IMG/VR virus record: IMGVR_UViG_3300031715_000026
Coordinates: 1-21,848 of that record
Origin: a virus
Reading direction: 5' to 3' (one strand)
Length of the DNA stretch: 21,848 bases
Shown here: positions 5,193 through 19,503 of the stretch, one piece after another
Layout of the letters: each line of letters opens with the position of its first letter
Numbering within the stretch: the first letter of the stretch is position 1
Notes under the pieces: generated by a model
What the model saw: the letters and a program-made list of their open reading frames with translations, nothing else
Databases searched by the model: none
What the model was told of the DNA's origin: nothing
Made by a program: the position numbers and the translations under genes

Positions 5193-5408
5193 TTACATCT
5201 TTTCGCCGTTGCCGTAGTTCTCAACGCCGGACGGTCCGTCGATGCCTTCTTCTTCCGAGTTCATCGCGTCATAGGCAGAGCCTTGATCGAATCCTTTGGG
5301 AGAGGGGCCAACGGTGAGTTTTCCACTCCGCAGAGAGAACGCGTCCTTCGTTTGGCTGGGGCTCGTTTCACCTGTTGAGTCTTTCTCACTTGGTTTCTTT
5401 TTGTCCAT
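5193..5408 (-). CDS. Small hydrophilic protein downstream of the capsid gene
   Basis: A 71-residue protein with a strong AAAGGAG ribosome site 7 bases before ATG. It is almost entirely polar (Lys, Ser, Asp, Gly, Glu), with no hydrophobic core, and is probably intrinsically disordered. It is the first gene after the major capsid protein in the operon. A head-decoration or assembly role is possible but not shown. Confidence 0.68.
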   Translation of the reverse strand: MDKKKPSEKDSTGETSPSQTKDAFSLRSGKLTVGPSPKGFDQGSAYDAMNSEEEGIDGPSGVENYGNGEKM

Positions 5409-5508
5409 TTTAGTCTCCTTTCTTTCATTTTACATCTGCTGCAAATCGTGAGGATTTTTGACCCGCTACGCAGATCAGGATGATCCTCAAACCTTGGGTT
5501 TTTAAAGC

Positions 5509-6453
5509 TTACCCGTTGCTGGTTCCGATGACTTCGACGGCTCGGTTGGAGTCTAGGATCGGATAGACCGCATAGCACTTCCAGCCAATTGTTCCGTTTA
5601 AGTTCAACGGATCGGCCACGCCTGAATCACCAGGTTGGTGAACGATTTTCTGAATCCCTTGGTTGGCAACGTCTACCGCGCCAAAGGCTTCTTTCCCGAA
5701 CACCCAGCTGTGATACGTAACCGCAGACATCGCGCCTACGCCAGTGAAGATGTTCTGGGACTCTTGGAATCGGATGTTGGACATCTTTCCGAGTTCCCCA
5801 GCAAGTGCACCTTCGTGCACTTTTTCGATGCTCACGTATTTGTTCAGTTCGATCCAGCTGGCAGAGTTGCTGTCAGACTGAAGGTCGAAAGACGTATTCG
5901 GATGCACCAATCCGTGATACGTCCCATCCTCGAACGGCAGGACGGCTAACCCGCGCAGGTACGCGGAGGCTTTTCGGAAGTCGATGGCGAGGGCAACCTG
6001 AGAGACGGTCGCTTCGCTGACTGCCGTGCCCGTATACTGGATCGTCATATTGCCGGTGAGGGCGTTACGAGCGATGGTATCCAGGGACAACCCAGCCTGA
6101 TAGCCAAGTACATCATGGATAGCTTCAGTGATGTTGTCATACGCTTCCAGCATGAGCCGGTCCGAGTACGCAACATACGCGCCGTATTGCACGGGCGTCG
6201 CCAGAATCTTGGTTGACTGCCAGACTTGGCCGTTGGGGTTTACACCTTCGCCCAGGGGCGTGGTGACCGCAGCCTGGTTTACAGGGCGGAGGAACTGAAT
6301 CTGAGTACCCGTCTGACGGGGAAGGGTTCTCTTCTCAGCATTCTCTTGAAAAAACAAGGAGAACATGAGGCGGGTAAGAAGTTTGCGATCGTAGAAGATC
6401 GCTGACGCGTCATTCAGCCCGCTTGTGCTAGTTAAGTTGGGATTTAATGCCAT
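5509..6453 (-). CDS. Major capsid protein, N4-gp56 type
   Basis: A 314-residue protein that should form the icosahedral shell. The features fit the N4-gp56/P22-coat-like HK97-fold capsid family: an N-terminal arm with IFYDRKLLTRLMFSLFFQ, the TLPRQTGTQIQFLRP segment (the usual basic 'K/R-x-G-x-x-V/I-x-F-R/L-R' strand), GEGVNPNG, a helical spine (DRLMLEAYDNITEAIHDVLGYQAGLSLD) and a beta-rich C-terminus. The start has an AAAGGAAAT site. It follows the scaffold gene, as is usual, but the two are separated by an HNH endonuclease and a tRNA-like array. Its ~190-base leader of its own suggests separate, strong expression. Family assignment is by recognition of motif order. Confidence 0.88.
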   Translation of the reverse strand: MALNPNLTSTSGLNDASAIFYDRKLLTRLMFSLFFQENAEKRTLPRQTGTQIQFLRPVNQAAVTTPLGEGVNPNGQVWQSTKILATPVQYGAYVAYSDRLMLEAYDNITEAIHDVLGYQAGLSLDTIARNALTGNMTIQYTGTAVSEATVSQVALAIDFRKASAYLRGLAVLPFEDGTYHGLVHPNTSFDLQSDSNSASWIELNKYVSIEKVHEGALAGELGKMSNIRFQESQNIFTGVGAMSAVTYHSWVFGKEAFGAVDVANQGIQKIVHQPGDSGVADPLNLNGTIGWKCYAVYPILDSNRAVEVIGTSNG

Positions 6454-6644
6454 CTTAATTTCCTTTGAAACTAAAGTCTATACCTCATCAAAGTGAGCTA
6501 TAGTTGTGTGACACAATAAGTCCTTCAAGCTCCATAACGATTGTTTTAGTCATCGTCCACTTATGTTTTCACAGGGCTTATGCTTGTCTGTTATTTTTAA
6601 GTGCTCACCGTGTCCAGTCACAACTGGGGGTTTAACTGTAGTGT
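6454..6644 (-). promoter_or_regulatory. Capsid-gene leader with possible promoter, hairpin and palindrome
   Basis: These 191 bases separate the HNH gene from the capsid gene. On the minus strand TTGTGA (6618-6623) is followed after 17 bases by TTAAAA (6595-6600), a possible sigma70-type promoter. The -35 overlaps a perfect hairpin (CCAGT/ACTGG at 6614-6618 and 6623-6627). Nearer the gene is a perfect 13-base palindrome TTGTGTGACACAA (6504-6516), a possible operator. The elements are direct sequence; their activity is inferred. Confidence 0.35.
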
Positions 6645-6995
6645 TTATTTCTTATCCGTATTGACGGGGAAATTAGACTGAAAATTGTTTAAATACTGAC
6701 TAGCTAGACAATTCCACTTACTGTCTTCTTTCATACCAAGCAATGTATTACAACGAGTGCATAATAAACCACGAATAGTTCCATTTGTATGATCGTGATC
6801 AGCAGCAAGAGATTTTGTTAACTCAGTTTGATGTCGTTTACATATAGCACAACAACCCGACTGAACTTGATACAAACGATCATAGTCATATCTCATAAAT
6901 AATGAACCGTCAGTATTTTTAATACCCAGCTTTTTCCAACTTTTGTTTTGCCAGCTGATCCATCGTTTCGATTGATGATCTAAATTAATGTTCAT
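6645..6995 (-). CDS. Endonuclease VII-like HNH homing endonuclease (copy 1)
   Basis: A 116-residue protein of the recombination endonuclease VII (HNH) type, which cuts DNA. It shows C49-x2-C52, DHDH (66-69) and RGLLC-x2-CN (75-83): the two Cys pairs would hold one zinc and the His/Asn form the beta-beta-alpha-metal catalytic site. The N-terminus is basic and aromatic (KRWISWQNKSWKKLG), typical of DNA-binding arms. GAGGAG lies about 10 bases before ATG. The gene is clearly more AT-rich than the scaffold and capsid genes beside it, which suggests later acquisition. It lies between scaffold and capsid and disrupts neither. Freestanding homing endonuclease is the likeliest role; Holliday-junction resolution is an alternative. 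Confidence 0.9.
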   Translation of the reverse strand: MNINLDHQSKRWISWQNKSWKKLGIKNTDGSLFMRYDYDRLYQVQSGCCAICKRHQTELTKSLAADHDHTNGTIRGLLCTRCNTLLGMKEDSKWNCLASQYLNNFQSNFPVNTDKK

Positions 6996-7042
6996 TACCT
7001 AACACTCCTCACTATTAACTAATTTGATTAGTAACTTTAAAT

Positions 7043-7109
7043 TGGTTTGTGCGGGAGCGGCTCCTATTCCAAGGAGCACTTTCAGGCATCTATCTGGATT
7101 GCCGCACAA
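7043..7109 (-). ncRNA. tRNA-like structure with encoded CCA but no T-arm
   Basis: On the minus strand a perfect 7-base acceptor TTGTGCG/CGCACAA (7109-7103 with 7053-7047) is followed by A and CCA (7046-7043), exactly as at a tRNA 3' end. Inside are a D-like arm GGCA/TGCC (7103-7100 with 7088-7085) and a 6-base stem GCTCCT/AGGAGC (7077-7072 with 7065-7060). The loop of that stem, read with its flanks, is TTGGAAT. No T-arm with TTCRA is present, and the length with CCA is 67 bases. It could be a decayed tRNA or a specialised minimal tRNA-like RNA. Confidence 0.45.
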
Positions 7110-7123
7110 GTGACTGAACTAAA

Positions 7124-7198
7124 TGGTTGCTCGCCATGGATTTGAACCACGCCCTCTAGCTTATGAAACTAGAATGATCACCAGATCACTTGCGTGCG
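7124..7198 (-). tRNA. tRNA-Met-like gene, anticodon CAU
   Basis: On the minus strand this shows a T-arm CGTGG-TTCAAAT-CCATG, an anticodon arm CTAGT-TTCATAA-GCTAG with anticodon CAT, and a D-arm GTGA-TCTGGTGA-TCAT with the conserved GG. A 3' acceptor strand GCGAGCA is followed by A and encoded CCA. The weak point is the acceptor: the 5' strand CGCACGC pairs at only 5 of 7 positions, and positions 8-9 are AA rather than TA. CAU could mean initiator or elongator Met, or Ile if lysidine-modified. It may be functional or starting to decay. Confidence 0.62.
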
Positions 7199-7203
7199 AA
7201 ATT

Positions 7204-7285
7204 TTGCCTGGAAGGCGGGACTGACCACTACCCGCAACCTCGCTAATAAAAGAAGCGACTCTTAGGGTTTAGAGTTACTTCCAGG
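7204..7285 (-). ncRNA. tRNA-Lys(UUU)-like cloverleaf with abnormal loops
   Basis: On the minus strand the stems form a full cloverleaf. The acceptor is CCTGGAAG/CTTCCAGG (7285-7278 with 7214-7207, perfect); TA follows at positions 8-9. The D-stem is ACTC/GAGT. The anticodon stem CGCT/AGCG carries a loop whose centre is CTTTTAT (anticodon UUU followed by A). The T-stem is GCGGG/CCCGC. But the D-loop lacks GG, the T-loop is 11 bases with no TTCRA, and the 3' end reads CAA rather than CCA. The stems are kept and the loops are lost. It could be a decayed tRNA or a structural mimic. Confidence 0.45.
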
Positions 7286-7295
7286 ACTTTAATCT

Positions 7296-8321
7296 TTATT
7301 GGTTATTCTGCTGTTGCGCGATGAGCCAGTCGCGCTGCTCAGACAGAGACATTTTCTTGAACGCCAACAGGTGGTCGGTGGGAACGCGTCCAGCGCCCTT
7401 TCCTGCGCTCGCCACCGTGCCGCCAGCCGTCTCGCGGCGGAGGGCTTCCTGCGCTTCCTTGGCCGCGTCTTCACGTGCCGCCTTGGAGATGGACTCCCTT
7501 TCCTTGGACACCATGTCTGCCACCATCGCCTTCACATCGGCTTCGGTGAACGTCTTGGCGCCGTCATTGGGTTGTCCGTTCTTGGTGTCATCAGTCGCCT
7601 TGGGATTCTCCTGCATAGCGATCTCATAGAGCTGATCAAGCACCTCGCTCGCTGGCTTCGTGAAGTCAACGCGGGGGTCGCCCGTGCCTGTGGGCCCCAT
7701 CGCGATCTTCACGATGTGGGGGTATAAGCGCTTCCACTCTGGGTAGTTCTCCGTGTCCTGTTCTCTGCGCATGCGTTCGATCAAAGTATCTTTGGCTTTC
7801 GCTTCGGTGGACGACCGTTCCAACTCTTCCTGGAACTCTGATGCTATCGCCTCGCGCTCTTCGTTCACAAATTTTTCAAGCGCCTCGGGGTTCTTGGCGA
7901 GCTCCTTGTAGTCCACCGGCTTCTTTGACAAGCTGGCCAGGAGCTTGTAGGTCTTCTCCTGGGCTTCCTTGAGCTCCGCCATCTCCTTTCGGAGCTTGGC
8001 GTTCTCCTGCGAGGTCCGCACGTTCCACTTGCGAAGCTCCTCTGGGTCGTTGGGCTCCTTCTTTTCCTTGGCTGGCTTCTTGCCTGTTTCCGCAGCCTTC
8101 TTGTCTGCCTCGGCTTTCTCGGCAGCCGCTTTGTCTGAGGATTCTTTATCGGCCTTCGCCTTTGCAGCAGCGGCCTCGGCTTCATCGCCCTCGGTGCCCG
8201 TCTTGCTTTCCGTACCTTCTTGTTCTTTGCCTTTCTCAGCTTCCAGCTTCTCAAGTGCTTCCGCGCGGGTGTTGATTGTTGCTTGGCTCACGCTTGACTC
8301 ACTGCTATGCTTGATTTCCAT
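7296..8321 (-). CDS. Head scaffolding protein (probable)
   Basis: A 341-residue protein that should act inside the prohead to guide capsid assembly and then leave. Residues ~20-100 are almost pure Ala/Glu/Lys/Asp, and ~105-190 form a long charged coiled coil (ENAKLRKEMAELKEAQEKTYKLLASL). A less charged segment (YPEWKRLYPHIVKIAMGPTGTG) follows, and a final helix KKMSLSEQRDWLIAQQQNNQ could be the capsid-binding end. Composition, length, a strong AAGGAG start and a place just before the capsid gene fit a scaffold. No protease motif is seen. Family assignment is by pattern, since scaffold sequences are poorly conserved. Confidence 0.8.
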   Translation of the reverse strand: MEIKHSSESSVSQATINTRAEALEKLEAEKGKEQEGTESKTGTEGDEAEAAAAKAKADKESSDKAAAEKAEADKKAAETGKKPAKEKKEPNDPEELRKWNVRTSQENAKLRKEMAELKEAQEKTYKLLASLSKKPVDYKELAKNPEALEKFVNEEREAIASEFQEELERSSTEAKAKDTLIERMRREQDTENYPEWKRLYPHIVKIAMGPTGTGDPRVDFTKPASEVLDQLYEIAMQENPKATDDTKNGQPNDGAKTFTEADVKAMVADMVSKERESISKAAREDAAKEAQEALRRETAGGTVASAGKGAGRVPTDHLLAFKKMSLSEQRDWLIAQQQNNQ

Positions 8322-8747: not shown

Positions 8748-8763
8748 TTACCTCCTCAAGTAA
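8748..8763. repeat. 16-base direct repeat, copy A
   Basis: TTACCTCCTCAAGTAA (minus-strand reading TTACTTGAGGAGGTAA). It spans the stop codon and last codons of HNH copy 2 and supplies the ribosome site of the 120-residue gene. An identical copy is at 9324-9339, before the 57-residue gene. Confidence 0.7.
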
Positions 8764-9152
8764 GATACTGCATTCAACAATATTTCAGGACTATCATTTG
8801 ACATCCCAAGAAGTGTATTACACTTTTGGCAAAGGATGCCTCGAACTAATCCTGTTACATGATCATGATCTATCTCATTGCGAAGGTTTATAAATAAACG
8901 TTTACAAATTGCGCATTTCCCGCTCTGGGAAGTCAATAAGGCATCAAATTGTTCAATTGAAAGACCATAATCTTTCTGCATCTGATATGCCCTAATCTTA
9001 CTGCGATTGGATTTCATCCAGTCGCGGTGCCAAGTACGTAGCTTTTCTTTATTCTTTGCAGAGTAAGCTTTCCGAGCTTTGTCTATCTTTGCTTTACGTT
9101 TATCTTTGGTTCTATGGTAATATGCACGTGAATAAGCATTTCTATCAGTCAT
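8748..9152 (-). CDS. Endonuclease VII-like HNH homing endonuclease (copy 2)
   Basis: A 134-residue nuclease. A long basic N-terminal arm (SRAYYHRTKDKRKAKIDKAR, about 8-60) is followed by C80-x2-C83, DHDH (95-98) and RGILC-x2-CN (104-112), the full zinc and catalytic set of endonuclease VII-like HNH proteins. Its ATG overlaps the stop of the upstream 57-residue gene (ATGA). Its stop lies 6 bases before the next gene, and its last codons form that gene's Shine-Dalgarno. It is AT-rich compared with its neighbours. It differs from the other copies outside the core, so the copies are not recent duplicates. Confidence 0.9.
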   Translation of the reverse strand: MTDRNAYSRAYYHRTKDKRKAKIDKARKAYSAKNKEKLRTWHRDWMKSNRSKIRAYQMQKDYGLSIEQFDALLTSQSGKCAICKRLFINLRNEIDHDHVTGLVRGILCQKCNTLLGMSNDSPEILLNAVSYLRR

Positions 9153-9340: not shown

Positions 9341-9550
9341 TTACTTAGACAAACCTTTTATCACTGCTTTGTGCAAGCGTTCTTTCTTGGATGACTTCTT
9401 GTGCTTCGGTAAGTTCTTTTGCCCAGGAAATTCATGGGCCCACCGTTTTGCAATATCGGGATGCTTAAGCCACAAGAATCGGCGCTGAGCTTCACTTTGA
9501 AAAGGGATTGGAGTATACCTCTGAAAGATAGTCCTGTGCTCGTTTAACAA
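9341..9550 (-). CDS. Small conserved phage protein (PFxSxAQRRFLW...LPKH type), start altered by HNH gene
   Basis: A 69-residue frame. From about residue 15 it contains PFQSEAQRRFLW, HPDIAKRWAHEFPG and KNLPKHK, a small basic protein type common in phages near portal genes, whose members normally begin at or just before the 'M-P-F-x-S-x-A-Q' segment. Here the codon before PFQS is ATC, not ATG, and this point lies within the last codons of the HNH gene in another frame. The only ATG is 15 residues upstream, inside the HNH gene (9550). So either this start is used or the gene now starts abnormally. The C-terminus is very basic (KHKKSSKKERLHK). The function of the family is unknown. Confidence 0.68.
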   Translation of the reverse strand: MLNEHRTIFQRYTPIPFQSEAQRRFLWLKHPDIAKRWAHEFPGQKNLPKHKKSSKKERLHKAVIKGLSK

Positions 9551-9884
9551 ATCCTCGTTTTTCTATAATGCCTAAACCAGTATTACAACCGGAGCACAGT
9601 AACCCACGAATTTTATTTGTTTGATGATCATGATCAACATCAGTCCATGGCTTCTCTTTGCACATGTGACACATTCCAGAATATCGAACAACTAAAACAT
9701 TCAACTCTGGGGCCGAAACATTAAAGCGTCTCAGATAGGTTCGCGATCTTCGATCAGGAGCACAGGTGCTGCACCATTTTTGATGTGGTGAAGTACTATA
9801 GAATGATTGGTGACAATGACGACAATTTGTAAGACGATTATTAACAATTTCTCTCATCTTAAGTGCAGATAATGAACGATCCAT
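9492..9884 (-). CDS. Endonuclease VII-like HNH homing endonuclease with extra N-terminal zinc pairs (copy 3)
   Basis: A 130-residue nuclease whose ATG directly follows the portal stop codon (TAG then ATG, no gap). It carries an extra N-terminal zinc-finger-like unit, C21-x2-C24 and C38-x2-C41, then C72-x2-C75, DHDH (84-87) and RGLLC-x2-CN (93-101). The N-terminal unit (CRHCHQSFYS and KWCSTC) is not present in the other copies and probably helps in target recognition. Its 3' end overlaps the small gene at 9341-9550 by 59 bases in a different frame. It is AT-rich compared with the portal gene. Homing endonuclease is the most likely role. Confidence 0.9.
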   Translation of the reverse strand: MDRSLSALKMREIVNNRLTNCRHCHQSFYSTSPHQKWCSTCAPDRRSRTYLRRFNVSAPELNVLVVRYSGMCHMCKEKPWTDVDHDHQTNKIRGLLCSGCNTGLGIIEKRGFVKRAQDYLSEVYSNPFSK

Positions 9885-11996
9885 CTATTTGGCACCCATT
9901 GGCATAGATGCTACACCTGGCACATTAGTATGAACTTGACCTGCCGGACTTGTTACCTGCGGAATAATAGAATTCATCGGAGAGGCGGTAGGACTTCCAC
10001 CGTTTCCAGCCGCTACGTGTTGCGCTAAAATTGCTTTGCCAGCCACTGCCGTCTGTGCTGAAGGCGCACCAGGAGACGGAGCGCCAGGAGTGGGAAGCAC
10101 GCCAGGGGCTGCTCCACCAGGACCAGGAGGTGGCGCTCCACTGCCAGCACCGGCTGCCGATTGAGGATTAAGACCGGCTGCACGGATGTCTTTAGAATCA
10201 AATCCCATAAGTTCCCAGATTTGTTTAAGAATTACATCTATTGAATTTGGGTCTAACTGCTGTTGAGCCATTGTGAAAAAATTAGTCATCTGCATTACTT
10301 TCTGGTCCCTGTTCACCATTTCAGACAACACGGTCATCTTGAAGTTGACGCCAGCTGCCGTCCTGATCATGGCCGGAGACACGATCTCTGGCTCAGGAAA
10401 TATATGGCCGTAGAATGCACGGATCACAGCAGAATTCGTCAGGTATTGCAAGTCAAGCATGTAAAACAACTGAAGCACCTTCTTGATGCCTTTCGTCTCA
10501 ATGGCTTTGGCTGCTGTGGCAAATTTTTCTAGGGCCTGCGATACGGCGACCTTAGCGACGCCGACGCCGACTGCGCCCTTGTTGGACTGCATGTCATCGA
10601 TGTTTCCAGTGAGGGAGGCTGGCACGGTAGCATTGAACATGTCCTGCTGGATCATCTGGGCATCCTGGTATGCGGAGCCAGTTACGTCCTTGCGCTCGAG
10701 CCCCTGGACGTTCTCCATAGCATCAACGAGAACGACTCCGCTTGGTGTGGCTGTCAGCTTGTCAATGTCCACGCTCGTGTCCGTGGCTAGGACCTTGTAC
10801 ATTTGGTTGATCAAAAGGTTCACATTATCTAGGCGCTGCCTGCGAACGAGGTTCGTCTCGTTCTGCAAGCTGAGGACCGGCTCAACGAGGCCGATCCCGT
10901 ACCACTCCAATGGCACCTTGCAGAAGTTCACCTTGACCAGCGGAATTTCCTGATGGTCGAAGGGGTTAGGCACGGCGCGAACCACAACCTGGCGGTTGGC
11001 GATGACGATCTGGCAGGGCTCTTCCTTGCCGTCACCATCCAGGTCCCAATGGCCCCAGATTTCCATCAGCTCGATGTCCTTGGACTGTGTGGTGGATATT
11101 TCGCCACGGGCAGTCTTCCTCCACTGGCGGGTCTCCTGGTACTTCATGGAAGTTCCCGTTGCCAGGGCCATGTCCTTGTTGCCGAAGTATGGCTGAGGGG
11201 AGTCGCAGATTCTTCCGAACTCCTTGCGGTCTAAAAATTTTCTTATGAATACGTACGGGGTGTCCTTCACGTCCGCCTTGTCCTGCTGCGGATACACGTC
11301 AAGGACGTCAAGCACGGTGAGCTTGGGTCGGCGTCCCACAATCTCATATCGCTTGGAGGTCTCATAGGTGACCTTCTCCTGGTTTATCCCTTGGTCATCC
11401 ACGTACTGAAGCTTCTTGGCCTGGCGGTTGACGCGCCATTGCCACTCCACCTCCCAGTCCACCCAGAAGTAGGATGTCCCGTACATCAGGAGCTGCTTCA
11501 AAAAGGTCTCGTACTTGTCGTTGAACTCGTTCTTGTCCATCTGGTCGGAGAGCAGCCGCTCGATGTTCTTGGCCACCTCCTCCTCCTGGATGTCATTTGG
11601 CACCACGTCGAACATGTTCTCGGTGCCGTTCGTGAAGCTGATGAGCTTAGGCGTGGCGATCTCGATGATCTGGAACACGAGGGGGATGAAGACCTTTGAT
11701 CGGGTCGGGGTTCGAGTCGTCACGTTGCCATTCATGTACGCTACATATATCTGCCACCAAAGAATTTCATAGGCCTTGCGCCAGTTCTCGCGGATGGTGA
11801 GCTCGCCCATGAGCTGGGACACGATCTCCTTCTGCATCCCCAAGCTGTAGCCGTCGGCGCTGTCGCCCTCGGGCTTTGCGAAGCCTTCTGGCGTCATGAT
11901 CTGAATGGGACTGTCGTCCTGCATCTGATCGATCTGTTCCGAGCCCTCTCGGTCCTCGATCTCTTGCAGTTGATCCTTGTTCTCGGTCAGGTCCAT
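9885..11996 (-). CDS. Portal protein
   Basis: A 703-residue protein that should form the dodecameric ring at one capsid vertex through which DNA enters and leaves. After an acidic N-terminal ~40 residues come helical regions typical of podovirus portals (RENWRKAYEILWWQIYVAYMN, then SKVFIPLVFQIIEIATPKL), the LLMYGTSYFWVDWEVEW strand region and the core LVKVNFCKVPLEWYGIGLVEPVLSLQNETN. A long helical wing follows, then a Pro/Gly/Ala-rich flexible tail (about 640-703). Length and position right after the terminase fit. The start follows the HNH stop without a gap, and GGGG in the HNH's last codons acts as the ribosome site. Confidence 0.87.
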   Translation of the reverse strand: MDLTENKDQLQEIEDREGSEQIDQMQDDSPIQIMTPEGFAKPEGDSADGYSLGMQKEIVSQLMGELTIRENWRKAYEILWWQIYVAYMNGNVTTRTPTRSKVFIPLVFQIIEIATPKLISFTNGTENMFDVVPNDIQEEEVAKNIERLLSDQMDKNEFNDKYETFLKQLLMYGTSYFWVDWEVEWQWRVNRQAKKLQYVDDQGINQEKVTYETSKRYEIVGRRPKLTVLDVLDVYPQQDKADVKDTPYVFIRKFLDRKEFGRICDSPQPYFGNKDMALATGTSMKYQETRQWRKTARGEISTTQSKDIELMEIWGHWDLDGDGKEEPCQIVIANRQVVVRAVPNPFDHQEIPLVKVNFCKVPLEWYGIGLVEPVLSLQNETNLVRRQRLDNVNLLINQMYKVLATDTSVDIDKLTATPSGVVLVDAMENVQGLERKDVTGSAYQDAQMIQQDMFNATVPASLTGNIDDMQSNKGAVGVGVAKVAVSQALEKFATAAKAIETKGIKKVLQLFYMLDLQYLTNSAVIRAFYGHIFPEPEIVSPAMIRTAAGVNFKMTVLSEMVNRDQKVMQMTNFFTMAQQQLDPNSIDVILKQIWELMGFDSKDIRAAGLNPQSAAGAGSGAPPPGPGGAAPGVLPTPGAPSPGAPSAQTAVAGKAILAQHVAAGNGGSPTASPMNSIIPQVTSPAGQVHTNVPGVASMPMGAK

Positions 11997-12383
11997 TTAT
12001 TTCCCCGTTATATAGTGCAGAGCACTAAGAAAGTTTTCTTCGTTTTCTTTGAATAAACCTAATCCACGATTGCAGTTACCGCACAAGAGCCCACGAACTC
12101 GTTTCGTCGCATGATTATGATCAATATCTAGCGGTTTAAAGGGCTTTTCATGACAAATTGCACATAAACCTTTTTGTTGCTCAACCATTAAGACATATTG
12201 AGCTTGGGTAATTCCGTAGTGTTTGCGTAAATGAGACTCGCGATTATAGTTGTCAAATTTTGCTTCATACTTCTTTTGGTTCTTAGTTTGCCTACTTTTG
12301 TAGTATTTTTTATACCGTAAGCGATTTTGTTCCCGTTGATATGCAGCCATCAGTACTTCACGGTCCATCAATTTAGCTGGCAT
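11997..12383 (-). CDS. Endonuclease VII-like HNH homing endonuclease (copy 4)
   Basis: A 128-residue nuclease with a basic, Tyr/Lys/Arg-rich arm (QREQNRLRYKKYYKSRQTKNQKK, about 16-40), then C74-x2-C77, DHNH (88-91; the third position is Asn rather than Asp) and RGLLC-x2-CN (97-105). Its ATG shares a base with the stop codon of the terminase gene (TGATG), and its stop touches the portal ATG (TAAATG). It therefore fits exactly between two essential genes. The terminase's last codons (GGAGATGAC) give it a ribosome site. It is AT-rich relative to its neighbours. Confidence 0.9.
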   Translation of the reverse strand: MPAKLMDREVLMAAYQREQNRLRYKKYYKSRQTKNQKKYEAKFDNYNRESHLRKHYGITQAQYVLMVEQQKGLCAICHEKPFKPLDIDHNHATKRVRGLLCGNCNRGLGLFKENEENFLSALHYITGK

Positions 12384-13741
12384 CAGTCATCTCCAAGATT
12401 TAATTCAATTTCAGGATATGGGAGTAATTCATTGACAGAACGCATGGCTTTTTTCCTGCTCTTGCTCGGCTTCCCGTAAATCTCGAGGGGGTCAAACCTC
12501 GCTTCGCTCGCTCTCTTTCTTGAAACACCACCCACCCTAACCAGGTCATACACTCCGGCGAGGTTCTTAGAGAAACCATAGCGAAGAGCGTCGGGACTAT
12601 GAGAGTTGTCATGAGCAGGTTTAGTAGAGCCGTTCTTGTCATAGCAGTACCCCTCCATCTCACGAACCAGGTCCTCGCACGTGTCGAAGAATGCTATCCG
12701 CTTCTCCTTCAGCAGCTTAGTGATGCGCTGGATGCCGATGTCGACCGAGTGGTCCGCCTGTATCATGTTGAGCTTGCACACGGAGCGCACTTCGTTCATG
12801 ACGGCCACAGCGGCTGGGTCCCAGAGCGTATACCGAAACTGGTGGGAGTTCAGATATAGGCCGATCTTCTCAGCCAGTTGGCGGTTCTTGTAAAACTGGG
12901 TGTAGATGTAGAACTTCTTGCCTTCTGGGTCATACGTGATCCCAAGGACAGACGTGGGGTCAGACCACCCATAGTCCAGGCCCGCCCACTTCGGCCAGTG
13001 GCTTGGAATCTCGAACGGCTCGCAGATATGGTCGGCCCTGCTGAACTCTGGGTAGATCAGGCCCTCGATCTGCACGAACCGGCCCTCGAAGTCCCGTTGG
13101 AATATGGACTCGTTCATCGTGGCTTTCGCGCGGTCGTAAATTGAGCGGTCGATGTATGGGTTATCAGCCATCGAGAAATTGATAAAAAATAGCCAGGGTA
13201 GGAACTTCCGCTGCTCAATCAGGCGGATGTTCATCCAGCTCGCTGGGCTGCCATAGGGCGTCGTTGTCATCAGGAGGCGGCCATGCGGCTGGCCTTGCTT
13301 CTGGACTAGGCGCTGGCAGACCTTGTCATAGGTCGTTTCATTACAGAGCGCGGCCTCATCCATCCAGCAGCGCCGCGCGAACAAGCCCTCAACTGCATCC
13401 GGCTTGTCAGCGGAGCGTATCCACACGACGCCGCCGTTCGCCAGCTCGATGATACTGTCCTGCTTCTTGTAGGTCCCCAACCCCCTCGGCCAGTACGTGA
13501 ATAAGGTCCTCAAGGTGGACTGGTTCAAAATTCGGTATGTTGGTCCGAGGATCAGGTAGTCGGACTTGACGCCTGCCTTGATGTCGGCGGCTATCTCGCG
13601 GATGAGCCACACAGCCCCGACGGAGGTCTTGCCAGACCTGTGCCCAGCGACGGCCAGTATCTGCTCAGCCTCGGAATCCAGAATCTGCTGCTGTGCCTCG
13701 TGCGGCGTGAATTCAGTCTGGCGCGACTCTTGGTCGACCAT
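12383..13741 (-). CDS. terL: Terminase large subunit (packaging ATPase-nuclease)
   Basis: A 452-residue motor that cuts concatemeric phage DNA and drives it into the prohead with ATP. The ATPase domain has Walker A GHRSGKTS (33-40), Walker B RCWMDEA (124-130, catalytic Glu129) and a coupling motif TTTPYG (159-164). The RNase H-like nuclease domain has GLDYGWSDP (254-262, Asp256), WDPA (307-310, Asp308) and HSPDALRYG (381-389, Asp384), the three metal-binding Asp residues expected. Length and motif spacing are normal, so the enzyme is probably intact. A purine-rich AGGACAAG precedes ATG. An HNH gene follows immediately, then the portal. Confidence 0.95.
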   Translation of the reverse strand: MVDQESRQTEFTPHEAQQQILDSEAEQILAVAGHRSGKTSVGAVWLIREIAADIKAGVKSDYLILGPTYRILNQSTLRTLFTYWPRGLGTYKKQDSIIELANGGVVWIRSADKPDAVEGLFARRCWMDEAALCNETTYDKVCQRLVQKQGQPHGRLLMTTTPYGSPASWMNIRLIEQRKFLPWLFFINFSMADNPYIDRSIYDRAKATMNESIFQRDFEGRFVQIEGLIYPEFSRADHICEPFEIPSHWPKWAGLDYGWSDPTSVLGITYDPEGKKFYIYTQFYKNRQLAEKIGLYLNSHQFRYTLWDPAAVAVMNEVRSVCKLNMIQADHSVDIGIQRITKLLKEKRIAFFDTCEDLVREMEGYCYDKNGSTKPAHDNSHSPDALRYGFSKNLAGVYDLVRVGGVSRKRASEARFDPLEIYGKPSKSRKKAMRSVNELLPYPEIELNLGDD

Positions 13742-17055: not shown

Positions 17056-18540
17056 ATGCCTAGGACACGAAGCGTAGACCCGTACCTCGATCACATAGAC
17101 TCGTTAAACACGGTTAATTCTGTTGGAGTGCCACGGCCTAGGCCCTCCATAAGTGTGCTTAGCCCTAACCATCCGGCTAACCAAGGTCAACGAAATGACA
17201 GCCGTAACTCCGTTACATATCAAGTCAGAGTGCCCGCATACAAGTTCTCTTTAGGATGGGAGCTAGAGGCTAACCGCTGCGCGACAAGAGTGCCAGTCGG
17301 AGTAAACCAGATAAAGGACCGTAGTGTAAACGGGGATAGTGCGGAGTACGTGGTTTTGCCGTCCGTCACGAAAGCACCTACATTTGTGCTAGGGCTGTTA
17401 AAGGATTTAGTACACGCCCCAAAGCTCAATACTGACAAGTCATGTGGGTTTCATATCCATGTAGGTATGCAAGGCGCAAAGATAGCGACGCTCAAACAGT
17501 GGGCCATTGCCACGGAGTCATTGGCCCTAGACATCGAAGACCTAGCGTTTAAGGCCGTGCCGAACGCGCGACATGCTAACCAGTATTGCAGGCGCATTGT
17601 CCCCCTTCAAGCGGGCACGCGATTTGTCCAGTTCAAGTCCAATAACGAGAGACGTTACCACTGGCTAAACACTGTCGAGATTTTCCGCCCTGGCGGTATC
17701 CGCACAATAGAGATACGCTTGCTAGGCAATACGCATAGATGGAAATACCTATTAGCATGGACGGCCTTCAGCTTGTCCCTTGCGCGTGAAGGCTGGAAAT
17801 TGGCGCATAAGCCTTTTGACAGCCGAAAAGAGTCAATCAGCCAACTATCAGACTTGCTAAAAGCTATTGCGTCTGACATCAGGCCGCTAGAAAAAAGATA
17901 TGAGCCTGTACCTACATGGCTGTATAGCCAGCTCAAAAACCTAGGTATTGAGTTTTCAGCCTTCGATAGGCCGCTAAAGACGCTAACGAAAATGGAAAGC
18001 AGAATCAAGGGCTGTTATGTCGTGCCGTATTCCGACGATCAAAGAGACGTGCCTAACGTCAATGAGGATGAGGACTACTGCGCGTGCGGCTGCGGGACTG
18101 AGGGACGCTGTGACTCGCAAATGCACGATGACGGGGACTGTGAGTCTAACTCCTGCTATAATTGCCATGAAAACGGGGACTGTAACTCTAGGTGTTGCGA
18201 GAATTGCCGAGAGTCGGCCCATAGCGACGGTGAACTATGTAGCTGGAATGATTGCCGACGCTGTGACCAGATACGCGCTGAGCAAGAGGGAGAGGAAGAG
18301 GCCGCGAGTGTTCCGGTTATATTCAGTGACCTAGAAATGAATAGACGCGCTGGCCTGACGTGCGACACACACGAAACAGCCCTAAGTGCCGAACGTGATC
18401 ATAGAATCCGGCAAGTTCTAAACAGTCCGGACCTTTCAATAGACGATGTATTGCAAATGCAACGTGCAGCAGAAAGCCGTTTAACAGAGGATGAAAATAC
18501 AATGAGTCTTGACCGCTCATCATTTCGAGGGGGGCACTAA
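17056..18540 (+). CDS. COOH-NH2 ligase-type amidoligase with Cys-rich tail
   Basis: A 494-residue protein whose family (amidoligase, glutamine-synthetase/gamma-glutamyl-cysteine-ligase fold) uses ATP to join a carboxyl to an amine through an amide bond. Seen motifs: GWELEA (67-72, metal-binding Glu), NGDSAEYV (92-99), CGFHIHV (130-136, family C-G-x-H-x-H-V), RYHWLN (200-205) and TIEIRLLGNT (217-226), i.e. the main family motifs in order. Residues ~1-60 are a Pro/Ser/Asn-rich arm. Residues 342-403 hold 14 Cys (CACGCG ... CCENC), probably zinc sites, which the core enzyme does not need. GGAGGA precedes ATG, and the amidotransferase gene follows by 3 bases. The substrate is unknown; peptide, cell-wall or protein-tag modification are options. 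Confidence 0.85.
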   Translation: MPRTRSVDPYLDHIDSLNTVNSVGVPRPRPSISVLSPNHPANQGQRNDSRNSVTYQVRVPAYKFSLGWELEANRCATRVPVGVNQIKDRSVNGDSAEYVVLPSVTKAPTFVLGLLKDLVHAPKLNTDKSCGFHIHVGMQGAKIATLKQWAIATESLALDIEDLAFKAVPNARHANQYCRRIVPLQAGTRFVQFKSNNERRYHWLNTVEIFRPGGIRTIEIRLLGNTHRWKYLLAWTAFSLSLAREGWKLAHKPFDSRKESISQLSDLLKAIASDIRPLEKRYEPVPTWLYSQLKNLGIEFSAFDRPLKTLTKMESRIKGCYVVPYSDDQRDVPNVNEDEDYCACGCGTEGRCDSQMHDDGDCESNSCYNCHENGDCNSRCCENCRESAHSDGELCSWNDCRRCDQIRAEQEGEEEAASVPVIFSDLEMNRRAGLTCDTHETALSAERDHRIRQVLNSPDLSIDDVLQMQRAAESRLTEDENTMSLDRSSFRGGH

Positions 18541-18543
18541 CCT

Positions 18544-19503
18544 ATGTGTGGACTGGTGGCAGGAATCGGCAAGCTAAACAGTAACCGAATTAAAGCTTTG
18601 CTCTCAATGAATGAGGACAGAGGAACCGACAGCGTTGGCATTGGATACATTATGGACCATAAAATCCGAGTGGCAAAGGTGGCCGAACGCCCATGTGTAG
18701 CGGTTAATCTTACGATTGCTAAGGAAATTACAGAAGCAGCGGTATCAGGTCTTTTTATCGGACACACGCGACAAGCGACGAAAGGAGAAGTATGCACGGA
18801 AAATGCCCACCCATTCTTGATGGACGGCATAGCGTTCGCGCATAATGGGATTATTATAAATTATGCCGACTTCGGGGACTACAAGGTAGACAGTCAGTCC
18901 CTTATCCACGGTATCAAGGCAAAAGACTTTAGCAAGTATAAGGGCGGCATTGCGCTTATATGGATTGAGGACGGGAAGCTAAAGGCCTATCGTTGTGGCA
19001 ATCCCCTCTATCGGGGGAAGCACAACGGGGTCACATACCTTGCCAGCGAGGATGACCAGCTAGAGGCGATCGGATGCAATCATATCAAGTCGTTAGCTGA
19101 GGGAATGATTTATACTTTCCTCAGTCCGACTCAACTTATGACGGAACGCGTCAAGAAAAATGAAAAAGGTTTTGCCTACAAGGGCATGTCATGGGAAGAC
19201 TACAACTATACGGGACACAAGACCCTAGCCCTCAGCACGCCTAGCAAGGATATAACGGCCTACTGTGATCACGGTATACACTACTCGCAAAAGTGCTTTA
19301 CGTGTGACGAGTTTCCGGCCCTGAGGGAGGACTTCCACACATGGAAGGACGAGAAGAAAAAGCAGGAGTACGTTGACTTCTGTGACATGTGTGGAAAGAA
19401 AGCAGAGTTAACCGAGGGCTATTGCTTAGAATGCATTACATACCTTGATGATAGCACGAGCAAAGACTTACCGCCTATGCCGTCACGCCGAGAGGTGCAA
19501 TAA
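18544..19503 (+). CDS. Class II glutamine amidotransferase with C-terminal zinc motifs
   Basis: A 319-residue Ntn-type glutaminase that should release ammonia from glutamine. Cys2 is exposed as nucleophile after Met removal. The family motifs are RGTDSVG (26-32), GHTRQATKG (73-81), NAHPF (87-91), HNG (100-102) and DSQSL (116-120). The catalytic domain ends near ~200. Beyond it are CDHG and C251-x2-C254, then C280-x2-C283 and C294-x2-C297, a zinc-ribbon-like tail not usual in this family. There is no synthetase domain on this chain; the adjacent amidoligase is the obvious partner. The ribosome site is the G6 run 9 bases upstream, in the end of the amidoligase gene. Protein and gene look intact. 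Confidence 0.88.
   Translation: MCGLVAGIGKLNSNRIKALLSMNEDRGTDSVGIGYIMDHKIRVAKVAERPCVAVNLTIAKEITEAAVSGLFIGHTRQATKGEVCTENAHPFLMDGIAFAHNGIIINYADFGDYKVDSQSLIHGIKAKDFSKYKGGIALIWIEDGKLKAYRCGNPLYRGKHNGVTYLASEDDQLEAIGCNHIKSLAEGMIYTFLSPTQLMTERVKKNEKGFAYKGMSWEDYNYTGHKTLALSTPSKDITAYCDHGIHYSQKCFTCDEFPALREDFHTWKDEKKKQEYVDFCDMCGKKAELTEGYCLECITYLDDSTSKDLPPMPSRREVQ

Follow-up and report, generated by a model that had tools for sequence, protein, structure and literature searches.

What would tRNA-like RNAs do in the spacer between the scaffold and capsid genes of a phage? The question is raised by the window, i.e. the whole 21.8-kb stretch of DNA analysed here, which is an IMG/VR virus record and only a fragment. 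Its late operon lies on the minus strand and comprises terminase (12383-13741), portal (9885-11996), a probable scaffold gene (7296-8321), the spacer, an HNH gene and the major capsid gene (5509-6453; PHROG 1357, major head protein). The scaffold gene was assigned from its position and from tblastn conservation in relatives, and part of it gave a short DNA match to Rhizobium phage RHph_N37, at a ‘putative capsid assembly protein’. An earlier note on this DNA described three tandem tRNA-like units in the spacer, a near-normal tRNA-Met(CAU), a Lys(UUU)-like cloverleaf and a T-arm-less unit with encoded CCA. Strand and span of the units were correct, and the tandem arrangement between scaffold and capsid holds for the Lys-like unit 1 and the Met unit 2, but not for unit 3, which is not recognisable as tRNA.

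As relatives we used 15 IMG/VR contigs carrying a close capsid relative (82–100% identity), and a capsid alignment search added none. Capsids of isolated phages are only ∼35% identical to that of the window, and in Bacillus phage Pony, the sole isolate examined, the corresponding genes are separated by 22 bases with no spacer RNA. Comparison of the terminase with bacterial and archaeal genomes gave a single weak match, in a MAG labelled archaeon, and no host clue. Elsewhere in the window, four free-standing endonuclease VII/HNH genes stand among the structural genes of the late operon (6645-6995, 8748-9152, 9492-9884 and 11997-12383), and two neighbouring plus-strand genes (17056-18540 and 18544-19503) encode an amidoligase-like enzyme and a class II glutamine amidotransferase-like protein.

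Unit 2 was called by ARAGORN as tRNA-Met(CAU) at 7124-7198 (-), scored 36.1 bits against the Rfam tRNA model (cut-off 29), and none of its 1000 shuffles was called as a tRNA. It has an encoded CCA and a C1.A72 mismatch. A CAU tRNA occupies the same spot in all 15 related contigs, including L012, in which ARAGORN gives a tRNA-Ala instead and the CAU tRNA was also found by Rfam. Among 13 distinct sequences, window included, pairing of the D, anticodon and T stems was kept in 180/180 pair cells, with shuffle maxima of 45/51, 50/65 and 48/64. Compensatory stem changes among relatives, which had been set beforehand as a test, are strongly present in unit 2, with as many as five kinds of pair at one position. 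Judged from these comparisons, unit 2 is a real tRNA under selection.

Position 1-72 is unpaired in 12 of the 13 distinct sequences, again including the window, and the anticodon CAU and the pair G30-C40 are present in all of them. Unit 2 thus shares CAU, the 1-72 mismatch, G30-C40 and the encoded CCA with bacterial initiator tRNA-fMet(CAU), and its copy in L008, the closest to Escherichia coli fMet, is far nearer to that tRNA than to elongator Met. In contrast to bacterial fMet, the phage pairs 31-39 and 29-41 are not the usual G-C, and the D-stem pair 11-24 is variable. Three consecutive anticodon-stem G-C pairs mark the initiator, and of these the central one, 30-40, is the only pair that is G-C in all 13 sequences; because the full signature is not kept, we use the term ‘initiator-type’. 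The enteric VapC cleavage site in fMet lies between A38 and C39 (PMC4105405), and bases 38-39, which are A-C in E. coli fMet, the only reference used for this site, are A-C in 0/13 phage copies. The strictly kept CAU together with the initiator-type acceptor mismatch shows selection for tRNA identity, for which a pure cutting signal would have no need.

Unit 1 (7208-7284, minus strand) is a Lys(UUU)-like cloverleaf in normal 5′–3′ order. The cloverleaf is its MFE fold (equally stable in 4/200 shuffles), and in mitochondrial mode ARAGORN called Lys(UUU) at 7206-7284, with any call in 7/1000 dinucleotide shuffles. The anticodon loop is CUUUUAU, the D loop is atypical, the T loop has 11 nt and there is no CCA; the general tRNA model gave no match to unit 1 even at E 10. 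By loops, model and CCA alike, unit 1 falls outside the canonical tRNAs, and direct comparison with E. coli tRNA-Lys revealed no similarity.

Its affiliation became visible through the relatives. In eight of them (L003, L005 and L007-L012), a circularly permuted tRNA-Lys(UUU)-like RNA lies in the stretch before fMet, at 5514-5590 in L003, 4534-4610 in L005, 2478-2554 in L007, 5618-5694 in L008, 2781-2858 in L010 and 5518-5594 in L012. The order is TTTTAGCA, T arm and acceptor 3′ strand, then a loop of 3–4 nt, followed by the acceptor 5′ strand, D arm and GCTTT. Among the six distinct forms, acceptor stems range from GGGGGAG/CTCCTCC to GAGTCAG/CTGACTC, and there is covariation in the T and anticodon stems as well, from which we conclude that the 5′ and 3′ halves do pair. 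A pattern scan for this permuted RNA found nothing beyond the eight known contigs, and the Lys RNA is absent in L004, L006 and L013-L016. In L003, L005 and L007, a further insert separates the permuted Lys RNA from fMet; the one in L007 (2555-2867) holds an HNH-like gene and a run of G, and what appears to be the start of another fMet copy precedes the HNH-like gene.

When the relatives' Lys RNAs were restored to normal order and made into a covariance model (R3), its best match in the window was unit 1 (35.3 bits, E 1.2e-7), >20 bits above the next, and its best matches outside were the tRNA-Lys(UUU) genes of E. coli. The score of unit 1 aligned to the de-permuted forms of L005 and L012 was reached by 0/1000 shuffles, and for all six relatives' forms the de-permuted order scored higher than the permuted one. 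Alternatively, the unit might have nothing to do with tRNA-Lys, its three arms capping by mere coincidence the hairpin found ahead of the tRNA in relatives, and its outer stem GTCCTGG..CCAGGCAAAATTT does align with the relatives' hairpin plus CACAATTT; given the R3 match and the shuffle result for L005 and L012, we consider this very improbable. Thus, by way of the relatives' Lys model, unit 1 is classed as a homologue of tRNA-Lys, and the R3 match and alignments place one Lys RNA at this locus in two topologies. The Lys-like cloverleaf of the earlier note is borne out. A pattern scan with the unit 1 core added three exact matches of 18 bases (L054-L056), roughly as many as chance would give.

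The 3′-half-first order with pairing halves, which defines a permuted tRNA gene, is found in the relatives and not in the window. With the permuted tRNA genes of algae and archaea, the relatives' Lys RNA shares this order and the break in the anticodon loop, whereas its linker is only 3–4 nt long and lacks CCA, and a sealed product is putative. A second likeness is to the bacterial Y RNA YrlA (Rfam RF02553), which also has a permuted tRNA layout with a closed acceptor stem, and which is matched by the permuted unit over its tRNA-mimic part (positions 25–83 of 114, 35–41 bits). These matches fall below the gathering score of 69; unlike YrlA, the folds of the permuted Lys RNA showed no Ro-binding stem, no Ro60/TROVE gene was found in seven partial records, and the Lys copy in the window is itself not permuted. 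We also considered a permuted group I intron-exon arrangement formed by the Lys halves and the structured capsid leader RNA described below, and rejected it, since Rfam Intron_gpI gave no match up to E 1 and the leader RNA occurs both with and without the Lys halves.

Unit 3 (7043-7109, minus strand) is a stable, lineage-specific hairpin. Its folding stability was matched by 1/200 shuffles, and the sole other contig that has it is L002, whose sequence at this place is identical to that of the window. The claim of a T-armless tRNA found no support in tRNA calls or alignments: the lenient search that called unit 1 in mitochondrial mode called unit 3 in no ARAGORN mode, no covariance model called it either, and its likeness to the 17 tRNAs tested was at chance level, except for a marginal 15/1000 against one. 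The terminal ACCA lies in the linker, and L013 and L014 have a related linker without CCA. In four relatives (L007, L012, L013 and L014), the place of unit 3 is taken by a tRNA-Ala-like gene, and alignments did not support unit 3 as a remnant of it. The tRNA-Ala-like gene itself, at ∼5665-5775 in L012 and with homologues in L013, L014 and L007, has its CCA end within an extra flanking helix, TTTGTCTT..AAGACAAA in L012.

Such turnover would be expected if the fMet were a normal phage tRNA gene that came to lie in the late operon by chance, and the Lys-like, permuted and hairpin units were debris of tRNA genes at an insertion hot spot. The absence from unit 1 of CCA and of canonical D and T loops, the varying presence of tRNA-Ala-like and HNH genes at the site and the lineage specificity of unit 3 are consistent with ordinary tRNA supply followed by decay. 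Against it, eight contigs retain the permuted Lys RNA and show compensatory changes in it, the fMet is present in every relative, and an initiator tRNA brings no codon-supply gain for internal codons, so we regard supply with decay as distinctly unlikely.

The sequences around the RNAs bear on how they might be made. Directly before the unit 2 tRNA lies the box CAAAATTT (7199-7206, minus strand); in relatives, the corresponding place is taken by CACAATTT or another T-rich box like it. In most relatives, a GC hairpin and an AATTT-type box stand upstream of the tRNA-like RNAs. Neither a promoter-like site nor a terminator was found on the transcribed strand of the spacer; with no promoter-like site there, the RNAs probably derive from the late transcript. 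Downstream, the relatives have a highly conserved structured RNA of ∼220 nt that links the tRNA with the capsid start (e.g. L003 5767-6000 and its homologues), with no family match in Rfam. The structure model of this leader (R1) identified a diverged copy in the window at 6454-6684 (-) (30.8 bits, E 1.8e-8), which a sequence-only model did not find, and also matched the first hairpin of the leader at 6962-7041 (-) (18.9 bits). Between the copy and its first hairpin, an HNH/endonuclease VII-type gene (6645-6995, minus strand; Pfam PF02945, 64.7 bits) sits inside the leader RNA, the hairpin holding the start region of this gene. A pattern scan for more leader RNAs gave L023 as the sole extra match, a chance one that lies inside an unrelated gene. 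In L016, an insert of 645 nt (5356-6000) that carries an HNH gene interrupts the capsid gene itself, and the ends of the insert resemble a group I intron (AAGATGTACTCC, possible P7 GAGTA/TACTC); Rfam made no intron call.

This layout agrees with the idea of mRNA processing in the earlier note, and would suit a cassette that is mainly a cutting signal, splitting the late mRNA between scaffold and capsid by RNase P and 3′ tRNA nucleases. The upstream hairpin would then cap the scaffold mRNA and the structured leader would shield the capsid mRNA, leaving capsid in excess. The constant position in 15 relatives, the hairpin and AATTT-type box ahead of the RNAs in most of them, the strongly conserved leader and the lack of a promoter-like site on the transcribed strand all fit with such punctuation. 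However, L013, L014 and L016 lack the hairpin, and the conserved anticodon, 1-72 mismatch and G30-C40 exceed the needs of a processing signal. We hold punctuation to be possible but doubtful, as a rival or as a companion role.

A different role is suggested by the RNA repair genes of these phages. The three longest relatives, which are phages with the permuted Lys RNA, all have a gene for an Rnl-type RNA ligase (G001:C1:1965-2465, G003:C1:19706-20167 and G005:C1:49428-49883), and two have one for RtcB as well (G001:C1:47462-48562 and G003:C1:8595-9689). RNA ligase and RtcB are enzymes that mend cleaved tRNAs (PMC7824862). In bacterial RNA-repair operons a Y RNA is paired with RtcB, and a decoy role has been suggested for the tRNA-like part of YrlA (PMC7790460); the pairing of YrlA with RtcB is paralleled in two of the phages here. 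PrrC cleaves tRNA-Lys(UUU), and it has been proposed that phages counter this with altered tRNAs (PMC10264068). With the T4-type counter-measures to anticodon nucleases, the cassette shares fMet and Lys(UUU), both known targets, and the relatives likewise encode an Rnl-type ligase and RtcB. It differs from them in that the Lys RNA looks like a mimic and not a chargeable tRNA, and an AAA_33 kinase-type domain was not found.

Because the tRNA identities are targets of VapC and PrrC, because relatives carry the ligases and because a decoy role has been suggested for YrlA, we favour the reading of the cassette as replacement or decoy tRNAs (fMet and Lys-UUU) against tRNA-cutting host defences, excised from the late transcript, and give it about an even chance of being right. 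The spacer would then be a small phage tRNA cassette within the late operon, from whose transcript both RNAs are presumably cut by host tRNA enzymes, and it would keep translation going while the host destroys tRNAs. The fMet may serve as a substitute initiator whose anticodon-stem junction is altered, initiator function being putative, and the Lys-like RNA, uncharged, may act as a decoy or mimic together with the phage RNA ligases. Several observations weigh against replacement or decoy tRNAs: the three-G-C initiator signature is incomplete, six of the relatives lack the Lys RNA, no RNA ligase was found in the window fragment, and the A38-C39 argument takes E. coli fMet as its sole reference.

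The permuted form allows a more specific proposal. An RNase P cut at the fMet and a cut in the AATTT box would leave 3′-OH and 5′-phosphate ends in the open anticodon loop, where a phage RNA ligase could seal them. The sealed Lys halves would be a circular tRNA-Lys decoy, or a tRNA after further cutting, that counters anticodon nucleases; we regard this version as unlikely.

The more interesting fact thus lies outside the window, in the permuted Lys RNA of the relatives, of which the window holds an unpermuted homologue. The papers found here on permuted tRNA genes concern algae and archaea, and in bacteria the known permuted tRNA fold is that of Y RNA. A phage family with a permuted tRNA-Lys mimic, a selected initiator tRNA and RNA ligases offers a testable case of decoy or replacement. 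The cassette likewise lends itself to a test of tRNA punctuation between the scaffold and capsid genes, and for defences that shut down translation, it would provide a test case for tRNA decoys or replacements.
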